Part shown: positions 1,819 to 13,019 of the stretch, piece by piece | Position numbering within the stretch: the stretch's first letter is position 1 | How the letters are laid out: each line of letters begins with the position of its first letter | Assembly: GCA_002167745.1 (NCBI GenBank) | Contig: NHCB01000006.1 | Location: 16,806 to 49,401, forward strand | From: Betaproteobacteria bacterium TMED22 | Lineage (GTDB): Bacteria > Pseudomonadota > Gammaproteobacteria > Burkholderiales > Eutrophovitaceae | DNA: 32,596 nucleotides | Reading direction: 5' to 3' | Notes under the pieces: generated by a model | Database searches by the model: none | Told to the model about the DNA's origin: nothing | What the model saw: only the letters and a program-made list of their open reading frames with translations | Position numbers and translations under genes: made by a program

Positions 1819-2145
1819 TACTTCTTACATTTCGCGGTTTTTGGTCAAGAGCAACAGAAACTCGGTGCCGAACCTTACCATCCTGCTAAATGCACCGCAA
1901 GCGGATAGAGGAATGAACCGGTTCACGGAAGACTAATCTATCGAGCCCAAATAACATAATGGGGGATGAACACCTAATTGGGGGGCAAATGGGGTTCCTA
2001 GAGCGAGTTACAAGTGATGAACGCAATAAAGATACTTGTTGCTTAAATGAGACATGAATGCCTATGCGTGGTATGTAAATATAAGTTTTTACAGCATCTT
2101 ACTCATCCTACTACTGTGCGTTATGTTTTATCGTATCTTCTTATA

Positions 2146-2160
2146 TGTTACAATGTAACA
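2146..2160. promoter_or_regulatory. Putative Zur box upstream of porin
   Basis: TGTTACAATGTAACA is a near-perfect dyad (TGTTAC, AAT, GTAACA). It differs from the core of the gammaproteobacterial Zur consensus (TGTTATAnTATAACA) at two symmetrical positions. It lies 54 bases before the porin ATG, and two similar sites occur at 7610 and 11438. Zur represses its targets when zinc is plentiful, so the porin would be induced by zinc starvation. The match is visible in the sequence; the identity of the regulator is inferred. Confidence 0.7.
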
Positions 2161-2214
2161 AATCGGTTAAAAAACAAACCGACTACCGACAACATAATTG
2201 GGAGACACATTTCG

Positions 2215-3555
2215 ATGACTATTAATACTTTTCGATGCCTCATCGCAATAATGAGCTTAGTGGCTTTTAGCTCAGCTCACGCGCAAGAGGATGTAAGTGA
2301 CCTACGGCAGGCTTTAGACGAACTTAGAAGTGAATACGAGCAAAGGATTTCTGATTTAGAGAAGAAATTAGAAATGGCTGTTCAATCTAAAGAGCATGCT
2401 GGATCTACAGGAACAACTAAATCAGTCGGAGGACGTACGATCAAAGGTAATATATTTAACCCGTCAATTGGTATCATTTTAAATGGTCAGTTTAAAGAAT
2501 TTTCCAAACGAACAGAGCCAGAACTCAAAGGGTTCTCCGTAGGCGAAGAGGCTCATCGAGGTGACGGTGGTATGGCTTTAGACCATACTGAATTAAACTT
2601 CTCGGCTAATGTGGATGACAAGTTCTACGGTAGCTTGACCTATGCCATCGCTGAGCATGAAGGTGTGGTAGAAACCGAGGTTGAAGAGGCTTACATTGAA
2701 ACACTTCCCGGTGCGGGCGCTCCAGCAAAATTTAAATTCGGTAAAGCGCTTTGGGCTATAGGCTATTTGAACGAACAGCATGCGCACGTTGATGATTTCG
2801 TTGGCCGTCCACTTCCATATGAAGTCTATTTCAACGGCGCTTTTAACGACGACGGTATACAGATCAGCAAGATCTTGCCAACGGACGTTTACCAAGAGGT
2901 CGGAGTTGGGTTATTCCGAGGTAACGACTTCCCATTTGGCACGACCGACAAGCAAGGTATTGGTGCAACCTCTTTATACTATCGAATAGGTGGTGACTTG
3001 GGCGTTAACGGCACCTGGAGACTGGGCGCATATAGGCTTGATGGCGAAACTGGAGGCCGTGTAGGAACAGAAGATCTCGTTACATTCATCGGCGATACAG
3101 ATATCACAGCATATGACCTTCGTTACACTTATGCACCGACTGGAAACGAAGCTAGCCAAGAAATTACCTTTACTGCGGAGCACTTTTCACGTTCTGAGGT
3201 CGGAAACTATACCGGCACTGGAGCCGAAGCCTTTGCCCAAACCGACATTAACCAAGACACCAGCGGTTATTATGTTGCAGCGACTTACAAATGGATGCCT
3301 CAAGCACGCGTTGGCGTGAGATACGCTGCTATGACTTCTGACAATATCGTAGGTGGCACTTTAGACGGCACGGTTGTGGATGGAGATGGATTTAATCCAA
3401 CTCAAACAGATATCATGTTCGATTGGACAAATAGTGAATATAGCCGGATCCGACTGCAAGTTGGCTCAGAGGAGGTCACTCGCGGTGAAAATGACGACTC
3501 ATTTATTCTCCAATACATCATGAGTTTTGGTGCTCACAGCGCTCACAAGTACTAA
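2215..3555 (+). CDS. Outer-membrane porin-like protein, probably zinc-regulated
   Basis: A predicted outer-membrane beta-barrel of 446 residues. It has a clear signal peptide (hydrophobic core about residues 8-18, likely cleavage after AHA near 24). A coiled-coil stretch (about 28-55, heptads rich in Leu, Glu and Lys) comes next, as in trimeric porins with an N-terminal coil. The rest has alternating strand-like segments and ends with an aromatic residue after a short His-containing tail (AHSAHKY). There is no TonB box or plug, so it is a porin rather than a TonB-dependent receptor. The reading frame is open back to 2047, but ATG 2215 is preferred because it begins the signal peptide, has GGGAG at 2200-2204, and the Zur-like box lies inside the longer version. 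The passenger is not known; zinc-related uptake is inferred from regulation only. Confidence 0.8.
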   Translation: MTINTFRCLIAIMSLVAFSSAHAQEDVSDLRQALDELRSEYEQRISDLEKKLEMAVQSKEHAGSTGTTKSVGGRTIKGNIFNPSIGIILNGQFKEFSKRTEPELKGFSVGEEAHRGDGGMALDHTELNFSANVDDKFYGSLTYAIAEHEGVVETEVEEAYIETLPGAGAPAKFKFGKALWAIGYLNEQHAHVDDFVGRPLPYEVYFNGAFNDDGIQISKILPTDVYQEVGVGLFRGNDFPFGTTDKQGIGATSLYYRIGGDLGVNGTWRLGAYRLDGETGGRVGTEDLVTFIGDTDITAYDLRYTYAPTGNEASQEITFTAEHFSRSEVGNYTGTGAEAFAQTDINQDTSGYYVAATYKWMPQARVGVRYAAMTSDNIVGGTLDGTVVDGDGFNPTQTDIMFDWTNSEYSRIRLQVGSEEVTRGENDDSFILQYIMSFGAHSAHKY

Positions 3556-3573
3556 AGACATACCTTATGATCG

Positions 3574-3605
3574 AAAAAAAACCGCGGGTCGCCGCGGTTT
3601 TTTTT
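3574..3605. terminator. Intrinsic terminator after porin
   Basis: An eight-A run, the stem ACCGCGG, the loop GTCG, the matching CCGCGGT and an eight-T run lie 19 bases after the porin stop codon. The structure is symmetrical and could work in both directions. Confidence 0.92.
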
Positions 3606-3835
3606 CGTCAGAGCATAACGATTTACATCCAAACAGTAACAGCTAATCTCATAACGGAACGTCATAGGATAGTTCAAGCAATCAATTGGCTACGGTGAAT
3701 CCTATTGAAATCAAAAGCGAGACAATAACCTTGTAATAAACGGATAAGCGTTGCCGGAGAGAAATGGTAAAACGAATAACCACTTAGGTTTTTTCTTTAT
3801 CGAGATCCCGCTATCGGATCAAAGGTTTACGCGAA
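3606..3835. other. Intergenic, convergent region, no gene
   Basis: This stretch lies between the porin terminator and the terminator of the leftward cyclase gene. The short plus-strand ORF beginning at 3751 runs into the cyclase coding region and has no plausible ribosome binding site or family resemblance. Nothing else was found. Confidence 0.6.
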
Positions 3836-3862
3836 ACAAAAAAGGGGAGCTAGCGCTCCCCT
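3836..3862 (-). terminator. Intrinsic terminator after cyclase-family gene
   Basis: Read on the minus strand, AGGGGAGC, a 4-base loop and GCTCCCCT form an 8-bp stem followed by a run of Ts. It lies about 25 bases after the stop codon of the gene ending at 3888. Confidence 0.88.
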
Positions 3863-3887
3863 ATCTGTTGCCAACTAAACTCAGTAC

Positions 3888-4946
3888 CTACCACGTAGCG
3901 ACTGGGCTACCAATTGAGCCTGTAGCACCTACGATTGGCACAGGAGAGTAAGTCCACATGAATTGGTATACACCTGCTTCCACCATCCCATCCAAGCTAA
4001 GGTTCTCTTGAATAGCTACACCATGTCTTGCCAGTAGAAACTGATGCACACAAAAAACACATGCTGGATCTGGGTTAGGTACTGCCTCAACAGCCCAAGT
4101 ATCCGCTCCGACAACGCCGACTTGACACTCCTCTGTGAGCCACCGCGCTACTTCCATGCCAATACCCGGCTCACCAGAATTATAAGTGGCGTTATCAGTG
4201 GCCCAATACTTGGTCCATCCGGTTCGGAAAGCAATCGCGTCCCCGGATTGGCACTGATAATCACTCATCCCTTGACGTTTTAATGCGGTTTTCACATCAG
4301 CCATGGTAATGACATCACCCTTCTCCATAGCTTCTACACCTCTTGCATTAGCAATGTCGATTAAGATTCCTCGAGCGATGATAGGGTTTAGATTCTCTGT
4401 GCCTAATTTTACCAGCCCATACGCACCTTCCATCTCTTGAACGGTTACACCGTTGTAGAAACGCATTTCATTTTTATCGCCATCTGCGCCTACCTGAACC
4501 CCAATGTGACCTAATCCGTCATACTGAGTCCCGACTTGACCAATCTCTGCAGTCAGCATTTCGTCGTACCACATCACTCTGTTTGGACCAAATGGACCTC
4601 CAGTAGGTGAGCCCGGAATCCTTAATGCAAATGTACGTGAACCAAAAAGCGGCATTTTTCCAGAATAAGGCTGACCAATTTTCATCGTCTTGCCTTCTTT
4701 CACTTGGGCAATCGCTCTTTTAACAACCTCAGGTTTTTTATACCAGTTTGTTGAACCCGCCTGATCGTCAGCACCCCAAAGCGGATTTGGCCACCATTTC
4801 TCTCCCAAAGGAGTCTCCATATTGGTACCATTTACCCAAGGTTTTCCAGCGCAAGACTTCCAGTCCTCTACCGTGCACGCGAAAGCGCTACTAGCGGAGA
4901 TTCCAAGCAGCACCGAAACTATCGTAGCTAAATTTCTAATTTTCAT
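3888..4946 (-). CDS. Secreted cyclase-family protein (kynurenine formamidase-like fold)
   Basis: A 352-residue protein of the cyclase family (PF04199), whose members include metal-dependent KynB formamidases. It starts with a Sec signal peptide (cleavage near AFA at residue 23), so it acts in the periplasm. The family metal motif HxGTHxD...H appears as QVGTQYDGLGH (residues 137-147): both histidines that normally bind metal are glutamine, while Asp143 and His147 remain. This Gln form may mark a distinct subfamily with altered metal use. Several Cys residues in the mature part could form disulfides. ATG 4946 is chosen over the upstream ATG at 4985 because it begins the signal peptide and is preceded by GGGAGGAG. 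It lies 52 bases after the Sel1-repeat gene and may share its transcript. The substrate is unknown. Confidence 0.82.
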   Translation of the reverse strand: MKIRNLATIVSVLLGISASSAFACTVEDWKSCAGKPWVNGTNMETPLGEKWWPNPLWGADDQAGSTNWYKKPEVVKRAIAQVKEGKTMKIGQPYSGKMPLFGSRTFALRIPGSPTGGPFGPNRVMWYDEMLTAEIGQVGTQYDGLGHIGVQVGADGDKNEMRFYNGVTVQEMEGAYGLVKLGTENLNPIIARGILIDIANARGVEAMEKGDVITMADVKTALKRQGMSDYQCQSGDAIAFRTGWTKYWATDNATYNSGEPGIGMEVARWLTEECQVGVVGADTWAVEAVPNPDPACVFCVHQFLLARHGVAIQENLSLDGMVEAGVYQFMWTYSPVPIVGATGSIGSPVATW

Positions 4947-4998
4947 CTTACTTACTCCTCCCAAAGTATTGATCTGATCGACCAAGGTTTATCTAGTT

Positions 4999-5496
4999 TT
5001 ACTTATCTTTATCGTAATAAGGCTTGTGATGATTACGAATATACTGCTCCACTTTCAACATCTTACCTTTGAGAAGTGCCAGACTTGTTCTAGCCTCTCG
5101 AAGATCCTGTCGCGCCGCTTGTTGATACAGTTTCTGCGCACGCCTTAAGTTAAGGGGCACTCCCTCACCAAATTCATACATCAGACCCAGTTCGAACTGT
5201 GCTTCCGCATGCCCGGCATCCGCCGCCTCTCTGAACCAAAGAGCTGCCTCACGATTACTCTTTTCTACCTTAGCCCACTCATATCGATATGTCATTCCCA
5301 GCTCATATTGCGCCTGACTATCTCCGTTTAACGCCCGCGTCTCCACGGTTTCAAGGCTTTTATTAGCCCTTTCTTGCGCGTCAAGTTTCTTTTTGTACTC
5401 TAGATAACCCGCGATGTCGGCGGCCTGTGTGGTTTGCACGGCAAAACCAGTAACACAAACTACTAAAGTCACTAGAGTAATAACCAAATTTTTCAT
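4999..5496 (-). CDS. Periplasmic Sel1-like repeat protein
   Basis: A 165-residue protein with a signal peptide (hydrophobic core about residues 4-20, likely cleavage after TQA near 25). It has two to three Sel1-like helical repeats between about 50 and 135, recognisable by the A..G...AQ.ELG..Y pattern seen twice (AQYELGMTY and AQFELGLMY), and a Lys-rich C-terminal helix. Sel1 repeats are protein-interaction scaffolds; no enzymatic motif is present. It lies 157 bases downstream of the FtsX-like permease gene and 52 bases upstream of the cyclase-family gene on the same strand, so it may belong to an extended zinc-region transcript. That is inference from order only. Partner and function are unknown. 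Confidence 0.8.
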   Translation of the reverse strand: MKNLVITLVTLVVCVTGFAVQTTQAADIAGYLEYKKKLDAQERANKSLETVETRALNGDSQAQYELGMTYRYEWAKVEKSNREAALWFREAADAGHAEAQFELGLMYEFGEGVPLNLRRAQKLYQQAARQDLREARTSLALLKGKMLKVEQYIRNHHKPYYDKDK

Positions 5497-5653
5497 GAGT
5501 TAAAGTTCCTTGTTTGTCTCAACCCCGGCCACATGACCCTAAGCGTCAGATCATAGTACTCAGAAAATCTCCAATTTCATAATTTGATAAGGTTAAAATA
5601 CCATAAAATCTATAGATACGTTATCACATCACGTGGGTCCGATATCGCTTAAC

Positions 5654-6898
5654 TCAATCTAAACCTTTCCTGGCTCGTAAATAGCTGACAAAGGATGGCA
5701 ATGCCGCCGCGATAAATGATGCTAAAAATACCATTAGAATCATATGGATACTATTTTCTGTGAAGATACTTACGTTAATATGCAACCCAAACTTTTCAAC
5801 AAGATAATCACGAGAAACTAACAAGGAACCCATGAGAAGAAGCGATCCTAGAATTACACCGAACAACGTAATAAAAAATGCTTCTAATTCGACTAGAAAA
5901 AATAGAAAGCGTGGTGGCGCGCCAATGACACGCAATAAATGAATCTCTTTCTGCCGCTCACGGATCGAGGCCAAGAGCATCGCACTCACGCCAAGGCAGG
6001 CCGCTAAAAACACTAATGCCGAAACTAACAGTAAAGTCTTCTCCAAGATCCCCATCATTTGCCAAAGCTCTGAGAGGGCGACACCAGGCAAAATAGCAAG
6101 TAATGGCTCACCTTTATAGTTATTAATACCTCTTTGAACACGGAAGGTTGCCATCTTCTCTTTAAGGCCTAACATGAAAGCAGTGATACTTTTCGGCTTA
6201 AGATCTATATCATCAAAATTATCGATAGGGGCCGATGAATTAGGAATTCTTACCCCATGCTGCCAATCGATGTGTATCGCCTCAATTCCTGCCAAGCTTA
6301 CGTGTAACGTTTGGTCAACCGGAGTACCAGTGGGTCGTAATATCCCCACGACGTCGAATGGACGGTCCTCATGCAAACTAAAGCTAGTCGCTGCCACACC
6401 ATGGGCGAGTACTAACCGATCCCCTAGTTGATAATTCAACTTTCTAGCGACCTCAGCGCCCAAAACTACATCAAACAAATCTTTAAAAGCCCTGCCATCC
6501 TTAAACTCTAGTAACTGCTTATCGCTGTAGCTGAAATACTTAAAATAGTCTGTTGACGTACCCAGCACACGATAACCCTTGTGTGAATCTCCAAGCGAAA
6601 TGGGTATAGCCCAATCAACTTTACGACTGGACGCAACTTTCTCGTAAGTTTCCCATCGGATATTGTTGGTTGGATTCCCCACTCGGAAGACCGAGTAAAG
6701 CAGTAAGTTGACACTTCCAGTTCTTGCGCCAACGATCAGATCAACTCCGGAAACGGTATTGGAAAAATTCTCTTTAGTCTGATGTCTAATGTGCTCTACG
6801 CCGAGCAAAACAAAAATGCTAACCGACATAGCTAGGAGGGAGACTAATACTGAGCTTTTTCGATCCAACAGACTCTTAATGGCAAGACGAATAAACAT
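5654..6898 (-). CDS. ABC transporter permease, FtsX/LolE-like
   Basis: A 414-residue inner-membrane protein with the MacB/FtsX layout: one membrane segment near residues 17-35, a large periplasmic domain (about 40-275), and three C-terminal membrane segments (about 283-305, 328-352 and 382-404). The cytoplasmic loop with RERQKEIHLLRVIGAP is the typical coupling region that contacts the ATPase. Its ATG follows the stop codon of the ATPase gene with no spacer, so the two form a transporter pair. Such pairs often move lipoproteins, peptides or cell-wall signals rather than metal ions. Homologous FtsX-like and LolD-like genes are, from memory, part of zinc-regulated zrg loci in Vibrio. Control by the Zur-like box at 7610 fits a zinc-starvation role. 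The real cargo is unknown. Confidence 0.88.
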   Translation of the reverse strand: MFIRLAIKSLLDRKSSVLVSLLAMSVSIFVLLGVEHIRHQTKENFSNTVSGVDLIVGARTGSVNLLLYSVFRVGNPTNNIRWETYEKVASSRKVDWAIPISLGDSHKGYRVLGTSTDYFKYFSYSDKQLLEFKDGRAFKDLFDVVLGAEVARKLNYQLGDRLVLAHGVAATSFSLHEDRPFDVVGILRPTGTPVDQTLHVSLAGIEAIHIDWQHGVRIPNSSAPIDNFDDIDLKPKSITAFMLGLKEKMATFRVQRGINNYKGEPLLAILPGVALSELWQMMGILEKTLLLVSALVFLAACLGVSAMLLASIRERQKEIHLLRVIGAPPRFLFFLVELEAFFITLFGVILGSLLLMGSLLVSRDYLVEKFGLHINVSIFTENSIHMILMVFLASFIAAALPSFVSYLRARKGLD

Positions 6899-7576
6899 CT
6901 AGGACTGCTTCCCAACGAGGTTAATCTCATTCAGCGAAACAACGCTATTGAAGTGCGTCGACAACGACATATCGTGGCTTACGAGCAATAAGGTTATTTT
7001 ATGCTCCTTCACGATGCTCATAAGCAAAGACATAAAAATATCTCGGTTGACCTGATCCAGAGACGAAGTCGGTTCGTCCGCGATCAATAGCTGAGGTTTA
7101 TTGATGAGCGCTCGGGCAATCGCTATTCGCTGCTGCTGACCGATACTTAGATTTCTGGCCGGCTCACTCCATTCATCTACCGATATGTTCAAGTCGGCCA
7201 ATAAACTCTTAATTTCCCGCTCAAGCGTTTCACCTCCTTGGCTAGAACCGAACGCGCTAGCGAGTTTAATATTGTCGATAGCGTCGAGATAAGAAATTAA
7301 GTTGAATTGCTGAAATACGAAACCAATATTTTCCGCCCTGAATTTATCTCTATGCCGAACAGACATTTCATTTAATGATTGACCAAACACGCTCACGCTA
7401 CCTGTTGTTTGTATCAAACCACTTAGCACGTTCAGCAAAGTGGATTTACCTCCACCGGAAGGTCCATGTAAAAAAGTCTTTTCACCCTCCGCAACCGACC
7501 AAGAGGAAATATTTAAAACCATTTTCCTGGGTTGACTTGGATAACAATATTGCGCATCTTTTATGGTGATAGTCAT
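6899..7576 (-). CDS. ABC transporter ATPase, LolD/MacB-like
   Basis: A 225-residue ATPase subunit that powers the adjacent FtsX-like permease. Walker A is GPSGGGKST (residues 38-46), the Q-loop reads VFQQFNLI, the signature is LSIGQQQ instead of the common LSGGQQQ, and Walker B with the following D-loop is LLIADEPTSSLD. Length and motifs match the LolD/MacB branch, not the ZnuC branch, so it is probably not the missing ATPase of the ZnuAB pair, although this cannot be excluded. It is the first gene of the operon and is divergent from the DUF3299 gene, with a Zur-like box (7610-7624) in the 89-base gap. Confidence 0.92.
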   Translation of the reverse strand: MTITIKDAQYCYPSQPRKMVLNISSWSVAEGEKTFLHGPSGGGKSTLLNVLSGLIQTTGSVSVFGQSLNEMSVRHRDKFRAENIGFVFQQFNLISYLDAIDNIKLASAFGSSQGGETLEREIKSLLADLNISVDEWSEPARNLSIGQQQRIAIARALINKPQLLIADEPTSSLDQVNRDIFMSLLMSIVKEHKITLLLVSHDMSLSTHFNSVVSLNEINLVGKQS

Positions 7577-7609
7577 GGTAGTCTTATACCCAAGTTTAAG
7601 ATTTCACAG

Positions 7610-7624
7610 TGTTACAATATAACA
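7610..7624. promoter_or_regulatory. Putative Zur box between divergent zinc genes
   Basis: TGTTACAATATAACA matches the Zur core TGTTATAnTATAACA at every specified position but one. It lies in the short gap between the ATPase gene (starting at 7576, leftward) and the DUF3299 gene (starting at 7666, rightward), so a single site could control both directions. This is the best core match of the three sites in the window. Confidence 0.8.
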
Positions 7625-7665
7625 AATTTGTAGCGACATGATGATCCAAAAAAGGGATGATTAAA

Positions 7666-8253
7666 ATGCGGTCTTCCAACCTAGTGGTGCTAATGACCAG
7701 CGCCTTGTTGCTCACTTCTCAAAATGAGACAAAAGCACAGGATCAAGGTGCCGATTTATCGGCATTTGAGGTAATTGAGTGGACTCAATTAATGCCGAAG
7801 GAAGATTTAGAAGCACTTCAGAACCCTCCGGACTACATAATGGACATTGAAGAAGGCTCTGAGGAAGATAAAGTAGTAAACCAAGGTGAACTATCGACGG
7901 ATATGTTTTTTGATGACGAATATCAAAGAGCCCTTTTATCAACAACAGTAGTTCCAGAGATGAACGGAAAGGCGATCCGCATACCAGGGTTCATCGTTCC
8001 GCTAGAATTTAATGACGATAAAACGGTAAGTCAGTTTTTTCTAGTACCTTTCTTCGGTGCATGCATTCACGTGCCGCCACCTCCACCAAATCAAGTGATT
8101 CATGTCACTAGTTCAAATGGCGTTGAACTTGAGAATCTATATACACCTCATTGGATTTCAGGTGTGGTAAATTCCATTTACACTGAAAACGAAATAGCGA
8201 CAGCAACCTACGCTATGGATGCAATAAGTGTCGAGGTTTACTGGGAAAAATAA
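7666..8253 (+). CDS. DUF3299 periplasmic protein, zinc-locus associated
   Basis: A 195-residue exported protein of the DUF3299 family. It has a short signal peptide (cleavage near KAQ, about residue 25), an acidic linker, and the family core with IPGFIVPLEF, followed by FFLVPFFGACIHVPPPPPN. The lone Cys and His in that block could bind metal. Two in-frame ATGs exist (7657 and 7666). The second is preferred because AAGGG lies about 9 bases before it but directly touches the first. DUF3299 genes commonly travel with LolD/FtsX-like ABC genes and DUF2796 genes, as they do here. A role in zinc uptake is plausible from this grouping and from the Zur-like box 42 bases upstream; the biochemical function is unknown. 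Confidence 0.85.
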   Translation: MRSSNLVVLMTSALLLTSQNETKAQDQGADLSAFEVIEWTQLMPKEDLEALQNPPDYIMDIEEGSEEDKVVNQGELSTDMFFDDEYQRALLSTTVVPEMNGKAIRIPGFIVPLEFNDDKTVSQFFLVPFFGACIHVPPPPPNQVIHVTSSNGVELENLYTPHWISGVVNSIYTENEIATATYAMDAISVEVYWEK

Positions 8254-8270
8254 CGACACTTTCCGTTCAA

Positions 8271-8301
8271 AAAGACGACTAACTAAAAATAAATCGTCTT
8301 T
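8271..8301. terminator. Possible bidirectional terminator
   Basis: AAAGACGA (8271-8278) and TCGTCTTT (8294-8301) are exact reverse complements with a 15-base A-rich loop, located between the convergent DUF3299 and MerC-like genes. The flanking A and T runs are short and the right arm overlaps the MerC stop codon, so termination efficiency is uncertain. Confidence 0.5.
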
Positions 8302-8695
8302 ATCCGCAGTTGGTTTTATCGTGTTGCTGACACAGCTTGAAATTAGTGAAATGTCCCCAAGCAATTAATCCGGCACCAAGCAGAGTAAGCAGCTTCTCAC
8401 CTGTTTCGCCGACTAGGCTTTCTAACAAAAGTGCTGCGATCAAACTGATTAAACCAAGTAAACCTAAACAAAATATCTTATATCTTTTGTGTTTTTTACA
8501 CCCTAAAGTCAACGCGAAGACACTGATTGGTAAAACGGCAACGACCATCCAAACATGGAATGTCTCGCTCTCAAGCGGCAATGACGCAAGGCTAGGCAAT
8601 ACAACCAATAACACAGGTACAAATAGGCAATGCACAGCGCATACCAAGGAAAGTCCGATAGATGTTTGATCTGTTAAAGCCTGAATACTTTTCAT
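8300..8695 (-). CDS. MerC-family inner-membrane metal transport protein
   Basis: A 131-residue protein with four predicted membrane helices (about residues 12-34, 48-65, 72-92 and 98-115). The MerC signature CAVHC lies at residues 19-23, and a cytosolic-type tail has Cys122, His125 and Cys130. MerC proteins are small inner-membrane mercury importers in mer operons. There is no MerA, MerP, MerT or MerR here. The neighbours are zinc genes, so a role in zinc (or other thiophilic metal) transport is more likely than mercury resistance. It lies 175 bases after the ZrgA gene on the same strand, which leaves room for its own promoter. A half-site resembling a Zur box (AAATGTTACA near 8740) lies in that gap but lacks the second arm. 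Confidence 0.85.
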   Translation of the reverse strand: MKSIQALTDQTSIGLSLVCAVHCLFVPVLLVVLPSLASLPLESETFHVWMVVAVLPISVFALTLGCKKHKRYKIFCLGLLGLISLIAALLLESLVGETGEKLLTLLGAGLIAWGHFTNFKLCQQHDKTNCG

Positions 8696-8870
8696 AACTT
8701 ACCCTCTATGTCTATTACCAGCCGCAGGACGATCAAGCTAAAATGTTACAACCTTTCTTACATCAATCTCAGTCATGCTCACTAAGGACCTCTTTCGACC
8801 CGGGGATACCCAACCTACCGTCGATACGATATCCACTAAACCGAACCAAAATAACGAGGAAGTTTACCTA

Positions 8871-9449
8871 TTAATTAACCTTCAACCTTGACTCAACTGG
8901 AGTTAAAGTTACCCCTCCCTGTTTCCCTTCCTTCAGCCACATCGTTCTTATTTCTTCAATTCCCGGAAATAACTTAAAAAGATGAACTTGAATCTCAGCT
9001 AATGTGGACAAGTTCTGACATTTAAAATGATAACCGGCAACAATATCGCTATGCGCTTCATGGTCATCATGCGCTTCATGGTCATCGTGTGCGCCCCCTA
9101 AAACTCCAGAGACGTCAACCGAGGAATCAAAAAGTTTGCATGTGACATCTATAAAAGTAAAAACTGTATCGTGTTGCTTAAGAGCTGCAGCTGCGCGCTC
9201 TGCAGTCTCAATGTCTATTGCGGATTGTGCCTTATATTCAAAGCCCACTATATTCATTGAGGGTGATTCAAATTCTATTTGGATTTCATTTCCCTCAATT
9301 GCTATCGTCAAATCCGACATTCCATGCACATGAGCATCTAAACTACCCTCTTCTGCTCTCGACTCTCGCGTGCTAAACGATTGGACGACGGTTATTAATC
9401 CAATCACCAATAACGTCACCTTCAATATATGTTTTACATCTAGTCCCAT
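8871..9449 (-). CDS. zrgA: ZrgA-like zinc-binding periplasmic protein (DUF2796)
   Basis: A 192-residue exported protein of the DUF2796/ZrgA family. The signal peptide covers about residues 8-32. The mature part begins with the family hallmark DAHVHGMSDL near 38-47, then beta-rich segments and an acidic, His-rich loop around residues 120-134, built from two copies of the hexapeptide DDHEAH. Conserved Cys residues flank the loop. ZrgA belongs to the zinc-regulated ZrgABCDE uptake system of Vibrio cholerae and probably binds periplasmic zinc. Here the gene lies 110 bases after znuB on the same strand and 175 bases before the MerC-like gene. Membership of the znuA transcript is plausible but not certain, given the gap. 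Confidence 0.88.
   Translation of the reverse strand: MGLDVKHILKVTLLVIGLITVVQSFSTRESRAEEGSLDAHVHGMSDLTIAIEGNEIQIEFESPSMNIVGFEYKAQSAIDIETAERAAAALKQHDTVFTFIDVTCKLFDSSVDVSGVLGGAHDDHEAHDDHEAHSDIVAGYHFKCQNLSTLAEIQVHLFKLFPGIEEIRTMWLKEGKQGGVTLTPVESRLKVN
9051..9086 (-). repeat. 18-bp tandem duplication coding the His-rich loop
   Basis: Two consecutive copies of an 18-base unit (plus-strand ATGCGCTTCATGGTCATC) at 9051-9068 and 9069-9086 encode the repeated DDHEAH of the ZrgA-like protein. A third partial copy may follow, where the reading continues with GAHDDHE-type residues. The near-identity of the copies suggests recent duplication or copy-number variation. Confidence 0.8.
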
Positions 9450-9559
9450 GTTAATGCTCTCCTTCTCTATCTCGATATTTTCTCATTGTGTAAATAACGT
9501 CATTGGAAACCGCATGCAGCCAACGCCCCAACGTCCCGACTAAACCTTTCGGGATTGGC

Positions 9560-10387
9560 TTACAATTTAGTTGTGTCTACTTGCCCAGCATCCCCTTTAG
9601 AAAACCTAGAACCAACCAATGCTGAAAAGATGCCAAGAATTCCTAGGCCCGCGTAGGTTGTTACCAATACTGGACCTGTAGGTGCATCGAGCATTGCAGA
9701 TAAAGCAATGCCAATAACAATAGCTGAACCGCTAAACAACCACGCCCATAACAACCGCCGACTTTTACCAATGGTCACTAAAGCAGGCAAAATAAGACTT
9801 GCGAACACCACATAAATTCCGACCAGCTGGACCGATGCGGTAATCGTTAAAGCGAACATAAAATAAAAGCCCACCCCTTGCCTCACACTTGGCACCGCCA
9901 TCCATGTAACTAAAATAGCAATAAAAAATGGCAGATGGAGTATGACGTCACTCATAGAAGCGAATAATATTTGACCAGACAGAAGATGCTTTAACTCCTC
10001 ATCGCCATGAGGATTATTGGTCAACACTAAAATTGATAAAGACGCGGATAGAACGAAAAAAACACCAATCCAGGCTTCTTGCTGCTTTGGAAAATGCTTT
10101 TCGATATCTCTAAAAATCAGCCCACCAATAAGGGCAAAAGATAATGCACCCAAAGATGGGCCTAAAGCGAATCCGGTGGGGTCCGAATGGACATGATTCT
10201 GCTGACCATAGACTGTGCGGCCCAACGTCTCAACAACGATGTAACCCAACCCTGCTATCTGGGCAATCGCCAAATCAATAAAAATTATTCCTCGCTTTAA
10301 AACTTCAATACCGAGCGGCGTATGCACTGAGGCTACCATCAAGCCGACTAAAAGTGCCGGCATTACAATATCCAGTAGCTCAACCAT
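9560..10387 (-). CDS. znuB: Metal (zinc) ABC transporter permease, ZnuB-like
   Basis: A 275-residue inner-membrane permease of the ABC-3 family (ZnuB/MntB/TroC type) with about seven to eight hydrophobic segments over its whole length. Family features include the N-terminal PLGIEVLKRGIIFIDLAIAQ segment and the AFALTITASVQLVGIYVVFASLILPAL-type region in the second half. It starts 7 bases after the stop of the ZnuA-like gene, so the two are co-transcribed. Normally a ZnuC ATPase is encoded next to these genes. None is present on either side, so the pump must borrow an ATPase encoded elsewhere. A short insertion with several His and Asp residues (QQNHVHSDPTG) lies in a loop near residues 62-72. 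Confidence 0.9.
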   Translation of the reverse strand: MVELLDIVMPALLVGLMVASVHTPLGIEVLKRGIIFIDLAIAQIAGLGYIVVETLGRTVYGQQNHVHSDPTGFALGPSLGALSFALIGGLIFRDIEKHFPKQQEAWIGVFFVLSASLSILVLTNNPHGDEELKHLLSGQILFASMSDVILHLPFFIAILVTWMAVPSVRQGVGFYFMFALTITASVQLVGIYVVFASLILPALVTIGKSRRLLWAWLFSGSAIVIGIALSAMLDAPTGPVLVTTYAGLGILGIFSALVGSRFSKGDAGQVDTTKL

Positions 10388-10394
10388 AAATATA

Positions 10395-11282
10395 TTAATT
10401 CAATAAAAGTTCTATTGTTTGATCATAAAGCGTAAATAAATCCGTCGCTTCTGATGATCCTCCGATTGTATAAGGAAGCGTTATCACACGCACATTTGTT
10501 TTTTTGGCCACCCACTCATTTGGGCCATCCGGATCATAGGGTGCAGTGATCACCGCAAGCGGAGGAGTTTTTTCAATAACGGATACAACCTTTGCGAGAT
10601 GACGCGCAGATGGTGGAATTCCAGGGCGCTCTTCAAGAGAAGTCAACGTATTCATCCCTAAAAATTTCAACAGGTAACTAAACGATTTATGGTGAGTAAT
10701 AACACTTTTACCTTTTAGGGACTCAGCAGCAATTATCCAATTCTGCAAGGCAGTCGCCCATCTTGCATTGAAAGACTTTAAGTTACTTTTATAAATTTCT
10801 GCGTTATTCGGATCTAGTATCGATAAACGTGCTTCGATGAGTGCCGCTGCCTCTATAATAATTTGAGGATCTAAATGAACATGCGGATTACCTTGAGGAT
10901 GAATATCACCCAAACTACGATCTAAAACGTCAGGTATCTCAATGTTTGTCACGTAATCACTGATCAACAAATGGCCAGGTTGACCAACCTGGACCCCTTT
11001 ATTGCCATTTCGGAGTAATAGCGGCAACCATCCGACCTCAAGATCAGCCCCAGAGCAGACAATTAAGTCTGTACGCCTTATTTTGCTCATCAAGCTTGGC
11101 TTAACTCGAATAAAATGTGGGTTTTGCTGCCCATGGGTTGCCGAATCGACCTTAATTAAGTCGCCACCAATCTCCATGGCTAGCGACTCCCATTCCGGCT
11201 CACAGGCTAGAACAAAAGGCTTTGCATGCGCTGTATTGATACTCAATGCAAATATAAATGCGAGTGCGGTGATTATTTTCAT
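10395..11282 (-). CDS. znuA: Zinc ABC transporter substrate-binding protein, ZnuA-like
   Basis: A 295-residue periplasmic metal-binding protein (cluster A-I). A signal peptide ends near AHA (residue 20). Expected metal ligands are visible as NPHF (His56), GNPHVHLDP (His134 and His136) and THHKSF (His197/His198), with an acidic ligand expected near the C-terminus. The long charged His-rich loop of classical ZnuA is reduced to a short segment, which suggests a different zinc-handling mode, perhaps assisted by the His-rich ZrgA protein encoded downstream. It is the first gene of the znuA-znuB unit. The promoter and Zur-like box at 11438-11466 lie about 155 bases upstream. Zinc is the most likely substrate; manganese is less likely, given three His ligands and the Zur site. 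Confidence 0.9.
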   Translation of the reverse strand: MKIITALAFIFALSINTAHAKPFVLACEPEWESLAMEIGGDLIKVDSATHGQQNPHFIRVKPSLMSKIRRTDLIVCSGADLEVGWLPLLLRNGNKGVQVGQPGHLLISDYVTNIEIPDVLDRSLGDIHPQGNPHVHLDPQIIIEAAALIEARLSILDPNNAEIYKSNLKSFNARWATALQNWIIAAESLKGKSVITHHKSFSYLLKFLGMNTLTSLEERPGIPPSARHLAKVVSVIEKTPPLAVITAPYDPDGPNEWVAKKTNVRVITLPYTIGGSSEATDLFTLYDQTIELLLN

Positions 11283-11437
11283 TCTTGTATTATCCCCTGA
11301 ATTAAGGCCCGAATTAAAAAAAACCCTAAAATGGTAGAAGAGGAGATTTCGTTGCGAAGAAATCAGTCACCATCTCAAGGTTATGAGCTGTTAAAGAGTC
11401 AGACTACTTGCGCCACTTAACTCTCATTCAACAATAA

Positions 11438-11452
11438 TGTTATAACATATCA
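11438..11452. promoter_or_regulatory. Putative Zur box upstream of znuA
   Basis: TGTTATAACATATCA matches the Zur core at 12 of 14 specified positions. The flanks extend the match (AA before, TTT after), in line with the 23-bp consensus GAAATGTTATAnTATAACATTTC. It overlaps the predicted znuA -10 element, the usual position for a repressor. Confidence 0.8.
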
Positions 11453-11466
11453 TTTATGAATTGCAA
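11439..11466 (-). promoter_or_regulatory. Predicted sigma70 promoter of znuA-znuB
   Basis: On the minus strand, TTGCAA (11466-11461) serves as -35 and TATAAC (11444-11439) as -10, with a 16-base spacer. The -10 lies inside the Zur-like palindrome, so zinc-loaded repressor would block polymerase. Confidence 0.6.
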
Positions 11467-11633
11467 TAGTTTACCTCCGGCACTAACGAGCACTAAAGAT
11501 CTAGTAATGGGTCACTCACCACTCGTAGATACAATTGACTAGGGGTTCCGCGTAAGGAACAAACAACCGGTACAATACTCCTAAAAGATCTCAATACTCT
11601 CAAAATAGTCTGATCTATCGTCGCGAGCCGCCT

Positions 11634-12578
11634 ATGAGTACGACATCTAACATAAAGAAAAGCATCTTAGTTCTGTCGATCAGCTTTACGGTAATGGTCG
11701 TTGAGATTCTAGGTGGCTATGCCTTTAATTCGATGGCATTGTTGGCGGACGGATGGCATATGGGTACGCACACCATCGCGATCGGCATCACCGTGCTCGC
11801 TTACGTTTATGCCAACAAGAAATCAAATGATTCCTCCTTCACCTTCGGGACATGGAAAGTCGAAATACTTGGTGCCTATACCAGCGCTCTACTTCTAATC
11901 GTTATTGGCCTAACGATGGGCTACGAATCAATAGATCGATTATTCAACCCGAAAACTATCGACTATGGATATGCGATTGCGACAGCGTTTATTGGTCTGC
12001 TTGTCAATGCGGTGAGCGCACTCATTTTAGGACACCACTCACACGACCACCATCATGGACATAGTCATGGTCCAATCCATGACCATAAGACTCCTTTGGA
12101 AACCGACCTCAACCTAAAAGCCGCTTATATTCACGTGATCACGGATGCGATTACCTCCGTATTAGCGATCGTAGCACTGATCGCGGGTTTATTATTTGGG
12201 TGGAATTGGATGGACCCCCTGATGGGGATTGTTGGCTCGATCCTCGTGCTTTTATGGTCACGCTCGTTACTAAAACAAACAACAAGGATTCTCATTGGCT
12301 CCGGCAGTCAAGATGGAACGTTGGAAAACCTTCGTAACAAAATAGAAAATATAGTTACTAGTGTTGCTAAACTTAGAGACCTACGATTATGGAGAACGAA
12401 TAACAGCCAATATGCTTGCGTTATCAAGGTTCAAGGGAGCGCAGAGACTGCTATTCGACAACATCTCGAGTTAGAGCTCTCAACACTACCTATTTCTTAC
12501 TTCGCATTGGATGTCCATCCTGAGTCAGAGGAACAAGACAACTTGGACGGGTCAATTCAAGCGAAAGAGAAAGCCTAA
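11634..12578 (+). CDS. dmeF: CDF-family divalent metal exporter, DmeF-like
   Basis: A 314-residue inner-membrane cation diffusion facilitator that exports a divalent metal in exchange for protons. There are six membrane helices, with a His-rich cytosolic loop between helices 4 and 5 (residues 134-151, ten or so His). The helix 2 site reads HMGTH (His42, His46) and the helix 5 site HVITD (His167, Asp171). The ADGWHMxxH pattern and the FTFGTWKVEILGAYTSALLL segment match the DmeF branch, described as cobalt/nickel exporters; zinc transport is also possible. Divergent from znuA, it may provide metal efflux opposite to uptake. No DmeR-type regulator is adjacent. The ribosome binding site is weak. 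A C-terminal cytoplasmic domain of about 100 residues is present. Confidence 0.87.
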   Translation: MSTTSNIKKSILVLSISFTVMVVEILGGYAFNSMALLADGWHMGTHTIAIGITVLAYVYANKKSNDSSFTFGTWKVEILGAYTSALLLIVIGLTMGYESIDRLFNPKTIDYGYAIATAFIGLLVNAVSALILGHHSHDHHHGHSHGPIHDHKTPLETDLNLKAAYIHVITDAITSVLAIVALIAGLLFGWNWMDPLMGIVGSILVLLWSRSLLKQTTRILIGSGSQDGTLENLRNKIENIVTSVAKLRDLRLWRTNNSQYACVIKVQGSAETAIRQHLELELSTLPISYFALDVHPESEEQDNLDGSIQAKEKA

Positions 12579-12628
12579 CCTTAAGCGATTCAGCCGAACC
12601 GCTTGGGGACAAAGGTCGAAGATGTCAG

Positions 12629-12705
12629 TGGGGTGGACGATGGGGCTCGAACCCACGACCACCGGAATCACAATCCGGGGCTCTACCAACTGAGCTACGC
12701 CCACC
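12629..12705 (-). tRNA. tRNA-His(GTG)
   Basis: A cloverleaf with a GTGGGCG/CGTCCAC acceptor stem, the extra G at -1 opposite C73 that is diagnostic of tRNA-His, anticodon loop TTGTGAT, a GTTCGAG T-loop and an encoded CCA end. It is the third gene of the tRNA operon. Confidence 0.97.
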
Positions 12706-12739
12706 ACAGACTTCATCAACGTCAGACTACAGAATCCAA

Positions 12740-12816
12740 TGGCACGCCCGACAGGAATCGAACCTGTAACCCCCAGCTTAGAAGGCTGGTGCTCTATCCG
12801 GTTGAGCTACGGGCGC
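12740..12816 (-). tRNA. tRNA-Arg(TCT)
   Basis: A cloverleaf with acceptor GCGCCCG pairing with CGGGCGT (the first pair is a G-U wobble), anticodon loop CTTCTAA, a GTTCGAT T-loop and an encoded CCA. It is the second gene of the operon. Confidence 0.97.
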
Positions 12817-12842
12817 AACTCGAACGCCTAAGCCGTCATTAC

Positions 12843-12919
12843 TGGTCGGGGTGGAGAGATTCGAACTCCCGACATCCTGCTCCCAAAGCAGGCGCGCTAC
12901 CAGGCTACGCTACACCCCG
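12843..12919 (-). tRNA. tRNA-Pro(TGG)
   Basis: A cloverleaf beginning with the typical C1 of bacterial tRNA-Pro (acceptor CGGGGTG pairing with CACCCCG), anticodon loop TTTGGGA, a GTTCGAA T-loop and an encoded CCA. It is the first gene of the operon, about 8 bases after the predicted transcription start. Confidence 0.97.
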
Positions 12920-12933
12920 ACTGAAGGGCCGAG

Positions 12934-12962
12934 ACTATATCGCCTCATGCCCCATACGTCAA
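12934..12962 (-). promoter_or_regulatory. Strong sigma70 promoter of the tRNA operon
   Basis: On the minus strand, TTGACG (12962-12957) and TATAGT (12939-12934) are separated by exactly 17 bases. Right after the -10 comes a GC-rich discriminator (CTCGGCCC), typical of stable-RNA promoters inhibited by ppGpp and DksA. Confidence 0.85.
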
Positions 12963-12990
12963 TCTGACAGGACTAATTTTACATCTAAAA

Positions 12991-13019
12991 TTGCATTAAT
13001 GAGATAAATCTGATATACA
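12991..13019 (+). promoter_or_regulatory. Possible dksA promoter
   Basis: TTGCAT (12991-12996) and TATACA (13014-13019) with a 17-base spacer lie about 45 bases before the dksA start. The match to consensus is modest. Confidence 0.35.

Follow-up and report, generated by a model that had tools for sequence, protein, structure and literature searches.

Which signal governs a locus that joins a porin gene to genes for ZnuA- and ZnuB-type zinc import proteins and a MacB-type ATP-binding cassette (ABC) pair, and which regulator responds to it? The locus lies in a 32,596-bp stretch of DNA (hereafter the window) from Betaproteobacteria bacterium TMED22 (contig NHCB01000006.1, positions 16,806 to 49,401), where three short sequences resemble operators of the zinc-responsive repressor Zur. 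The observation of these three boxes is confirmed, and the best explanation of the sequence data is that they are, very probably, operators of the organism's own Zur driving a locus for zinc shortage. The initial annotation, which took ten genes to be a coordinated zinc-acquisition locus, is supported by sequence comparison in its zinc-regulon interpretation, with corrections to several of its parts.

Three boxes of the Zur type

The predicted operators, none with an assigned strand, differ in their symmetry. The porin box, TGTTACAATGTAACA at 2146-2160, lies 54 bp 5′ of the porin start and is a perfect 7-1-7 dyad, while the box shared by the divergent ABC pair and the DUF3299 gene, TGTTACAATATAACA at 7610-7624, has the same 7-1-7 layout except that one pair is broken. 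The znuA box, TGTTATAACATATCA at 11438-11452, stands 155 bp from the znuA start and 181 bp from the start of a divergent CDF metal exporter gene; its symmetry is confined to ATGTTATAACAT, and the description of all three sites as 15-bp dyads holds for the first two and has to be dropped here. Mismatches to the Zur core TGTTATANTATAACA, which is contained in the Vibrio zrg box as given in an excerpt of PMC9817125, number two, one and two for the 2146, 7610 and 11438 boxes, the one or two originally counted. The label "gammaproteobacterial" for this core is better replaced by Burkholderiales-like. Direct reading also agrees with the placement 5′ of the porin and between the ABC and DUF3299 genes. 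The claim that the third box covers the −10 element of znuA is unsupported and was set aside, as a promoter consensus scan has no promoter-like site in 11283-11633; the scan has none at the 2146 or 7610 boxes either and, being empty at all three, may simply not suit this organism.

Exact matches to TGTTAYANTRTAACA, a pattern whose Y and R letters were fitted to the sites, occur in the whole genome only at the 2146 and 7610 boxes, and none of 600 dinucleotide-shuffled versions of the window holds any, against two in the real sequence. Loosening a single 15-bp consensus removes this distinction: with three mismatches allowed, 9 sites occur in the window against a shuffled mean of 5.0, 6 of 100 shuffles reach 9 and there is no clear enrichment, and at two mismatches the forward strand of the genome has 11 sites against 18 for the reversed-pattern control, which is no excess. 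Such loose matching was rejected as evidence.

Five sister genomes (G001, G002, G003, G006 and G007) supplied the 20 boxes from which a sequence-only motif model, R1, was derived, with the organism's own sites excluded. When applied to the organism's genome (1,881,163 bases; 95.3% complete), with 150 of 490 candidates scored, the model places the 11438 box first (E 5.6e-4), followed by the 2146 box (E 7.1e-4) and the 7610 box (E 0.0154), in line with the proposal that these would be the top genome matches of a Zur matrix. All matches at E ≤10 fall inside the locus and comprise the three boxes, one of them again on the opposite strand, and a fourth independent match, the weak Zur-like box 5′ of the sel1-cyclase genes (5613-5633, minus strand; E 0.75).

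Conservation of the boxes and the zur gene

Across the genus, represented by nine genomes including the organism's own (G000), the pattern TGTTAYAAYRTAACA at up to one mismatch gives 27 rows in six of the nine genomes. Strands, registers and contig-end copies were merged by hand, the last being C92 and C139 of G002, with 127 identical bases, and the ends of C2 and C18 of G003, near-identical save the tip. This leaves 19 distinct boxes, each 5′ of a zinc gene: six at the porin, four at abc/DUF3299, four at znuA, two at merC, two at zur and one at cobW. The reversed-pattern control gives 6 forward and 3 reverse rows. With R1 at E ≤1, 40 of 41 rows lie at zinc-gene sites, a count that includes the training sites, which match by construction; the one exception is the window's sel1 box. 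In alignments of the znuA-CDF and merC-zrgA intergenic regions, the box stands out as a well conserved segment. The dyads are conserved at orthologous sites in close relatives, the 2146 box in G002, G003, G006 and G007, the 7610 box exactly in G006 and G002 and more weakly in G007 and G003, and the 11438 box in all five sister genomes used for R1. A decayed second box 5′ of the porin (2123-2137, plus strand; ATGTTTTATCGTATC, two mismatches from ATGTTAYAAYRTATC) is better kept in G006 and G007, where it stands in tandem 27 bp from the main box.

The organism does encode a Zur homologue. Among its three FUR-domain genes, a zur-type gene is found about 15 kb outside the window (G000:C4:64308-64772); its product has Zur as top NCBIfam model (90.6 bits), its top PDB matches are 7dh7, a regulator of the Fur family, and 4mtd, a zinc uptake regulator, and its sequence contains two CxxC pairs. 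The other two genes encode a Fur-like protein (contig C13) and a third paralogue (contig C8). Close homologues of zur are found in five of the nine genus genomes, the organism's own included, and all five have boxes, compared with one of the four genomes in which zur was not detected. This co-occurrence fits the boxes as Zur operators and is suggestive only, since the genomes are related to each other and some are incomplete.

A regulator other than Zur is very improbable. Fur-family boxes look alike and three FUR-domain proteins are encoded, so the Fur-like protein or its C8 paralogue might occupy the sites in response to iron, manganese or peroxide; against this, it is zinc genes that follow the boxes, zur is itself preceded by a box in G001 and in G003, and G004, G005 and G008, in which zur was not found, are boxless. 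In G003, an exact box also lies upstream of a COG0523/cobW GTPase gene (L068:250-1455).

Several observations weigh against control by Zur as proposed here. The R1 model is not fully independent of the sites that it ranks, because the choice of boxes and the pattern used to find them in the sister genomes drew on the organism's own sites. The zur product stays below the NCBI Zur equivalog cut-off (90.6 bits against 167), which is an annotation threshold and not a definition of Zur, and its gene has no box upstream at up to two mismatches. G006 (80% complete) has boxes and no zur was found in it, and G004, G005 and G008 retain porin, znuA and znuB without boxes. Beyond the genus, a box lies 5′ of the porin in none of 20 stretches chosen at the level of the order and in two of 20 chosen at the level of the class, for which reason Zur control of the porin, as far as sequence can tell, is lineage-specific.

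With Zur as the preferred regulator, the following mechanism can be proposed. Several of its elements are inferred mostly from homologues: that Zur represses the locus, that the porin carries zinc, which way the Zrg pair transports, and that ZnuB has an ATPase partner. When zinc is replete, zinc-loaded Zur dimers would occupy the boxes and block the porin gene, znuA and the zrg/DUF3299 pair; the sel1-cyclase genes would probably be blocked too, though less strongly. In zinc shortage, Zur would release the boxes and the locus would be switched on. The porin would then admit zinc across the outer membrane, ZnuA, together with ZrgA, would bind it in the periplasm, and ZnuB would move it into the cytoplasm with an ATPase encoded elsewhere, while the MacB-type Zrg pair would handle zinc or a metal carrier.

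Gene content and extent of the regulon

Pfam names nine of the ten locus genes, the porin matching no family. The locus combines a Zrg module (ZrgA, MacB-type ABC pair, DUF3299) with ZnuA-ZnuB, MerC and the porin. Genes of the types ZrgA, MacB/FtsX permease, ATPase and DUF3299 are all represented in the window. The zrgA gene, of the periplasmic zinc-binding type (8871-9449, minus strand), has a product scoring 147.7 bits with PF10986, above the Pfam cut-off of 27.4, and 123.3 with the NCBI model, below its cut-off of 185, and matches PDB 7ahw (PA4063) at E 2.6e-17. A zrgB-like MacB/FtsX permease (5654-6898, minus; PF02687 and PF12704) is followed in coordinate order by a zrgC-like LolD/MacB-type ATPase (6899-7576, minus; PF00005, with LolD the best NCBIfam model, under its cut-off) and a zrgE-like DUF3299 protein on the plus strand (7657-8253; PF11736 at 152.4 bits, PDB 4hsp at E 2.8e-26). 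A zrgD gene (DUF2607) was not recognised in the locus, and no search aimed at zrgD was made. The znuA-type gene (10395-11282, minus) encodes a zinc-binding protein that scores 125.8 bits with PF01297 and matches zinc-binding proteins in the PDB including ZnuA (2osv, E 2.9e-12), and the znuB-type ABC-3 permease gene (9560-10387, minus; PF00950 at 55.3 bits) is the sole ABC-3 gene found in the genome; both products exceed the Pfam cut-offs.

Among the closest described counterparts is the ZrgABCDE system of Vibrio, in which, according to excerpts of PMC9817125, Zur represses the genes for ZrgA, permease, ATPase and DUF3299 protein, and a box of the TGTTATATTATAACA type is predicted. The window has the same four gene types and similar predicted boxes, and differs in the divergent orientation of the DUF3299 gene, in the position of zrgA beyond merC, and in having the porin and ZnuAB within the same locus. 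ZrgA is also a sequence relative of PA4063 (7ahw), and the accompanying MacB-type pair recalls the zinc-repressed PA4063-PA4066 operon of Pseudomonas aeruginosa, whose MacB pair is argued, in excerpts of PMC11481552, to export a pyochelin-cobalt complex. Import by the Zrg pair of the window is therefore only one of the possible directions.

It is nearly an even call, leaning slightly against, that Zur targets just the zrg, znuA and porin units and that the sel1-cyclase and merC genes are passengers, so that the ten genes do not form one regulon. The cyclase-family gene (3888-4985, minus; PF04199 at 81.6 bits) and the Sel1-repeat gene 13 bp 5′ of it (4999-5496, minus; 62.9 bits) are at the locus in three of five genomes (the window, G007 and G003); in G006 and G002 neither gene occurs between ftsX and the porin. 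Their box is weak, with no counterpart in G003 (best four mismatches), whereas G007 has a two-mismatch box before sel1. The MerC-family membrane protein gene (8300-8695, minus; PF03203 at 101.2 bits) is preceded in the window by a decayed box (8743-8757, plus; ATGTTACAACCTTTC) that is absent among the own-genome R1 matches; in four sister genomes (G002, G003, G006 and G007), however, the merC box is better kept (R1 E ≤0.005), and in G001 merC lies directly behind zur. The ten-gene zinc locus is strengthened for the porin by its znuA linkage in other families, and is less secure for the sel1-cyclase genes, with their weak box and presence in three of five genomes, and for merC, whose box has decayed here. 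The zur and merC genes of G001 are arranged head to tail downstream of a Zur box (L078:4852-5709), and a MerC-family protein was not met as a zinc-regulon member in the literature, among the matches listed.

The divergent CDF metal exporter gene (11634-12578, plus; PF01545 at 136.6 bits) is a candidate target of the znuA box, and shares its intergenic region with znuA here as well as in G002, G003, G006 and G007. The box might act as a two-way switch, with zinc-loaded Zur repressing znuA and activating the exporter gene as for Streptomyces zitB; elsewhere, the gene activated by Zur encodes an exporter or the activator of one (PMC5472717 and PMC9827704, in excerpt). This arrangement is improbable, since 181 bp separate the box from the CDF start and a conserved TACAAT lies 119 bp downstream of the box, which is therefore not beside the likely CDF promoter; furthermore, the znuA box of G001 is flanked on its other side by the porin, not by CDF. 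The TACAAT (11571) belongs to a block at 11550-11580 that lies 5′ of CDF and is conserved in five genomes, and is perhaps the exporter gene's own promoter.

The porin and its linkage to znuA

The porin is the part of the locus most worth bench work. Its gene (2215-3555, plus strand) encodes 446 aa, the start being chosen from a six-genome alignment (the mechanical open reading frame (ORF) begins at 2047), and its product is predicted as an OprP/OprO-like barrel with an N-terminal coiled coil. The structure prediction, from 26 sequences, has a mean pLDDT of 74 and replaces an earlier 6-sequence model (pLDDT 33) that was dropped. Its best fold matches are OprP (2o4v; Z 28.2, root-mean-square deviation 3.4 over 316 residues) and OprO (Z 28.1), which points at the level of the fold to an OprP-type barrel; these phosphate porins are the closest solved folds at 11-14% identity, and a PDB sequence search with the porin has no matches. 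In contrast to the phosphate porins, the neighbours of the window porin are zinc genes, not phosphate genes.

An order-level search of 300 genomes recovers the porin family in 91, six of them in the genus. In 20 neighbourhoods chosen outside the genus, mostly one per family and two from the organism's own family, the porin adjoins znuA in every case, followed by znuB in 19, the contig of L137 ending first. Among the 30 order-level porin loci listed, znuA lies within 1.5 kb in 27; in the other three, those of the window, G002 and G003, the two are separated by further genes. At the class level the family is found in 79 of 274 genomes; the non-own loci, among the matches listed, have porin, znuA and znuB in 19 of 19, and in the 20 stretches chosen a znuA relative adjoins the porin throughout, with a window-type ZnuB match in 16 and an ATPase after the binding protein in the other four. 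Within the genus, porin, znuA and znuB are contiguous in G001, G005 and G008, and probably in G004, where contigs break. Because this adjacency recurs in other families and genus members, an older porin-znuA-znuB operon seems to have received the zrg and merC genes by insertion in the clade of the window.

An R1 search of the 20 order-level stretches has no matches, and L132 among them carries a canonical box 5′ of cobW. The two class-level stretches with a box at the porin come from the distant genomes G326 and G413, where the run, with ORFs read by eye, is porin, binding protein, ATPase and permease; TGTTATAACATAACA occurs 5′ of this run exactly in G326, before a small DUF2946-like ORF, and with one mismatch in G413, about 30 bp 5′ of the porin start. 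Small DUF2946-like genes, with weak Pfam scores, are also located 5′ of the porin in L122 and L129, and similar genes occur in further stretches.

Four histidines, H189, H191, H441 and H444, are each invariant in all 48 aligned porins (48 entered and kept; the porin of G008, in two pieces, was not entered). H189 and H191 are positioned between strands 172-179 and 211-220 of the model, in a region taken as the constriction loop, and H441 and H444 at the poorly modelled C-terminus. With the porin beside zinc-import genes in many families, these residues suggest that it may be a dedicated zinc doorway, and we infer that they may bind zinc. Histidine-rich loops were rejected as a general mark of the family: stretches with at least five histidines in 15 residues occur in 3 of 48 porins and in 9 of 180 neighbouring control ORFs, and the argument consequently turns on the four invariant histidines. 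Two porins have nine (L230:7654-8910) and six (L229) histidines in such a stretch. The G008 porin (L189:6443-8024) consists of two separate pieces with no match at about residues 181-204, the region of H189 and H191, and could be broken, divergent or misassembled.

A general channel made in zinc shortage and lacking a zinc preference is a rather unlikely alternative to the zinc doorway. The model is that of an ordinary porin barrel nearest to OprP and OprO, and a rise in permeability alone could suffice; the linkage to znuA across families and the four histidines invariant in 48 of 48 porins speak instead for the zinc doorway.

Most descriptions of how zinc passes the outer membrane when it is scarce concern TonB-dependent receptors. 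Little is known on this crossing, according to an excerpt of PMC4176598, and if the proposal is true, a porin tied by operon and Zur to a zinc importer would represent another outer-membrane zinc route, an idea that the four invariant histidines make directly testable. The nearest Zur-controlled porin, among the matches listed, is MspD of Mycobacterium smegmatis, which is induced when zinc is lacking or Zur is lost (PMC13098993, in excerpt); it is compared by description, and as an MspA-type porin it belongs to a different kind of envelope. In the table notes of a review (PMC6103462, excerpt), the abbreviations given for the Zur regulon include that of an outer-membrane porin, oprD. A Gram-negative zinc porin or a porin-znuA operon was not encountered as the subject of a paper in the open-licence literature, among the matches listed.

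ZnuB with no ZnuC found in the genus

The window resembles ZnuABC systems in having a ZnuA-type binding protein and an ABC-3 permease, and differs in that ZnuC was not found in the genus. Against the ZnuC model, the best protein of the organism reaches 96.5 bits compared with a cut-off of 306 (all 52 candidates scored), and the eight best matches read as other ABC types. At E ≤1e-32, and with at most 36 candidates scored per genome, the ZnuC model has a match in none of the nine genus genomes and in 2 of 61 genomes overall, whereas 10 of 14 control genomes are positive. A single ABC-3 gene, covered by two partial matches, is present in every genome of the genus, and a PDB sequence search with ZnuB has no matches. 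ZnuC-like queries match in L132 alone among the 20 order-level stretches, and in L215, beside a zur relative, and L220 among the 16 class-level stretches with ZnuB.

The conserved ZnuA-ZnuB combination with no neighbouring ZnuC raises the question of which ATPase drives the pair. All 24 aligned ZnuB sequences share an invariant GQIL segment, interpreted here as the helix that couples to the ATPase (G002 was left out, and L137 has no znuB before its contig end). Since this presumed coupling segment is invariant, an ATPase encoded elsewhere is likelier than none. The znuAII-znuBII-omr operon in the Zur regulon of Vibrio parahaemolyticus likewise has genes for an outer-membrane protein, ZnuA and ZnuB and no ATPase in the operon as listed (PMC9817125, Table 1); compared by description, it has a TonB-dependent receptor where the window has a porin. 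A ZnuC-less ZnuAB was not found as the subject of a paper, among the literature matches listed.

A wider proposal, tentative and judged somewhat less probable than its opposite, is that the porins form a nameless, dedicated zinc-porin family in which an H-x-H motif (H189, H191) in the constriction loop and an H-x-x-H motif (H441, H444) at a periplasmic C-terminus would guide zinc to the ZnuA encoded next door. The Burkholderiales ZnuB, having no ATPase gene of its own, would borrow the ATPase of another transporter or work free of ATP, and Zur would have captured an older operon in the lineage of the window.

Downstream of the CDF exporter gene, a 134-aa ORF at 12603-13007 overlaps tRNA-His, tRNA-Arg and tRNA-Pro on the opposite strand and is probably not a gene.

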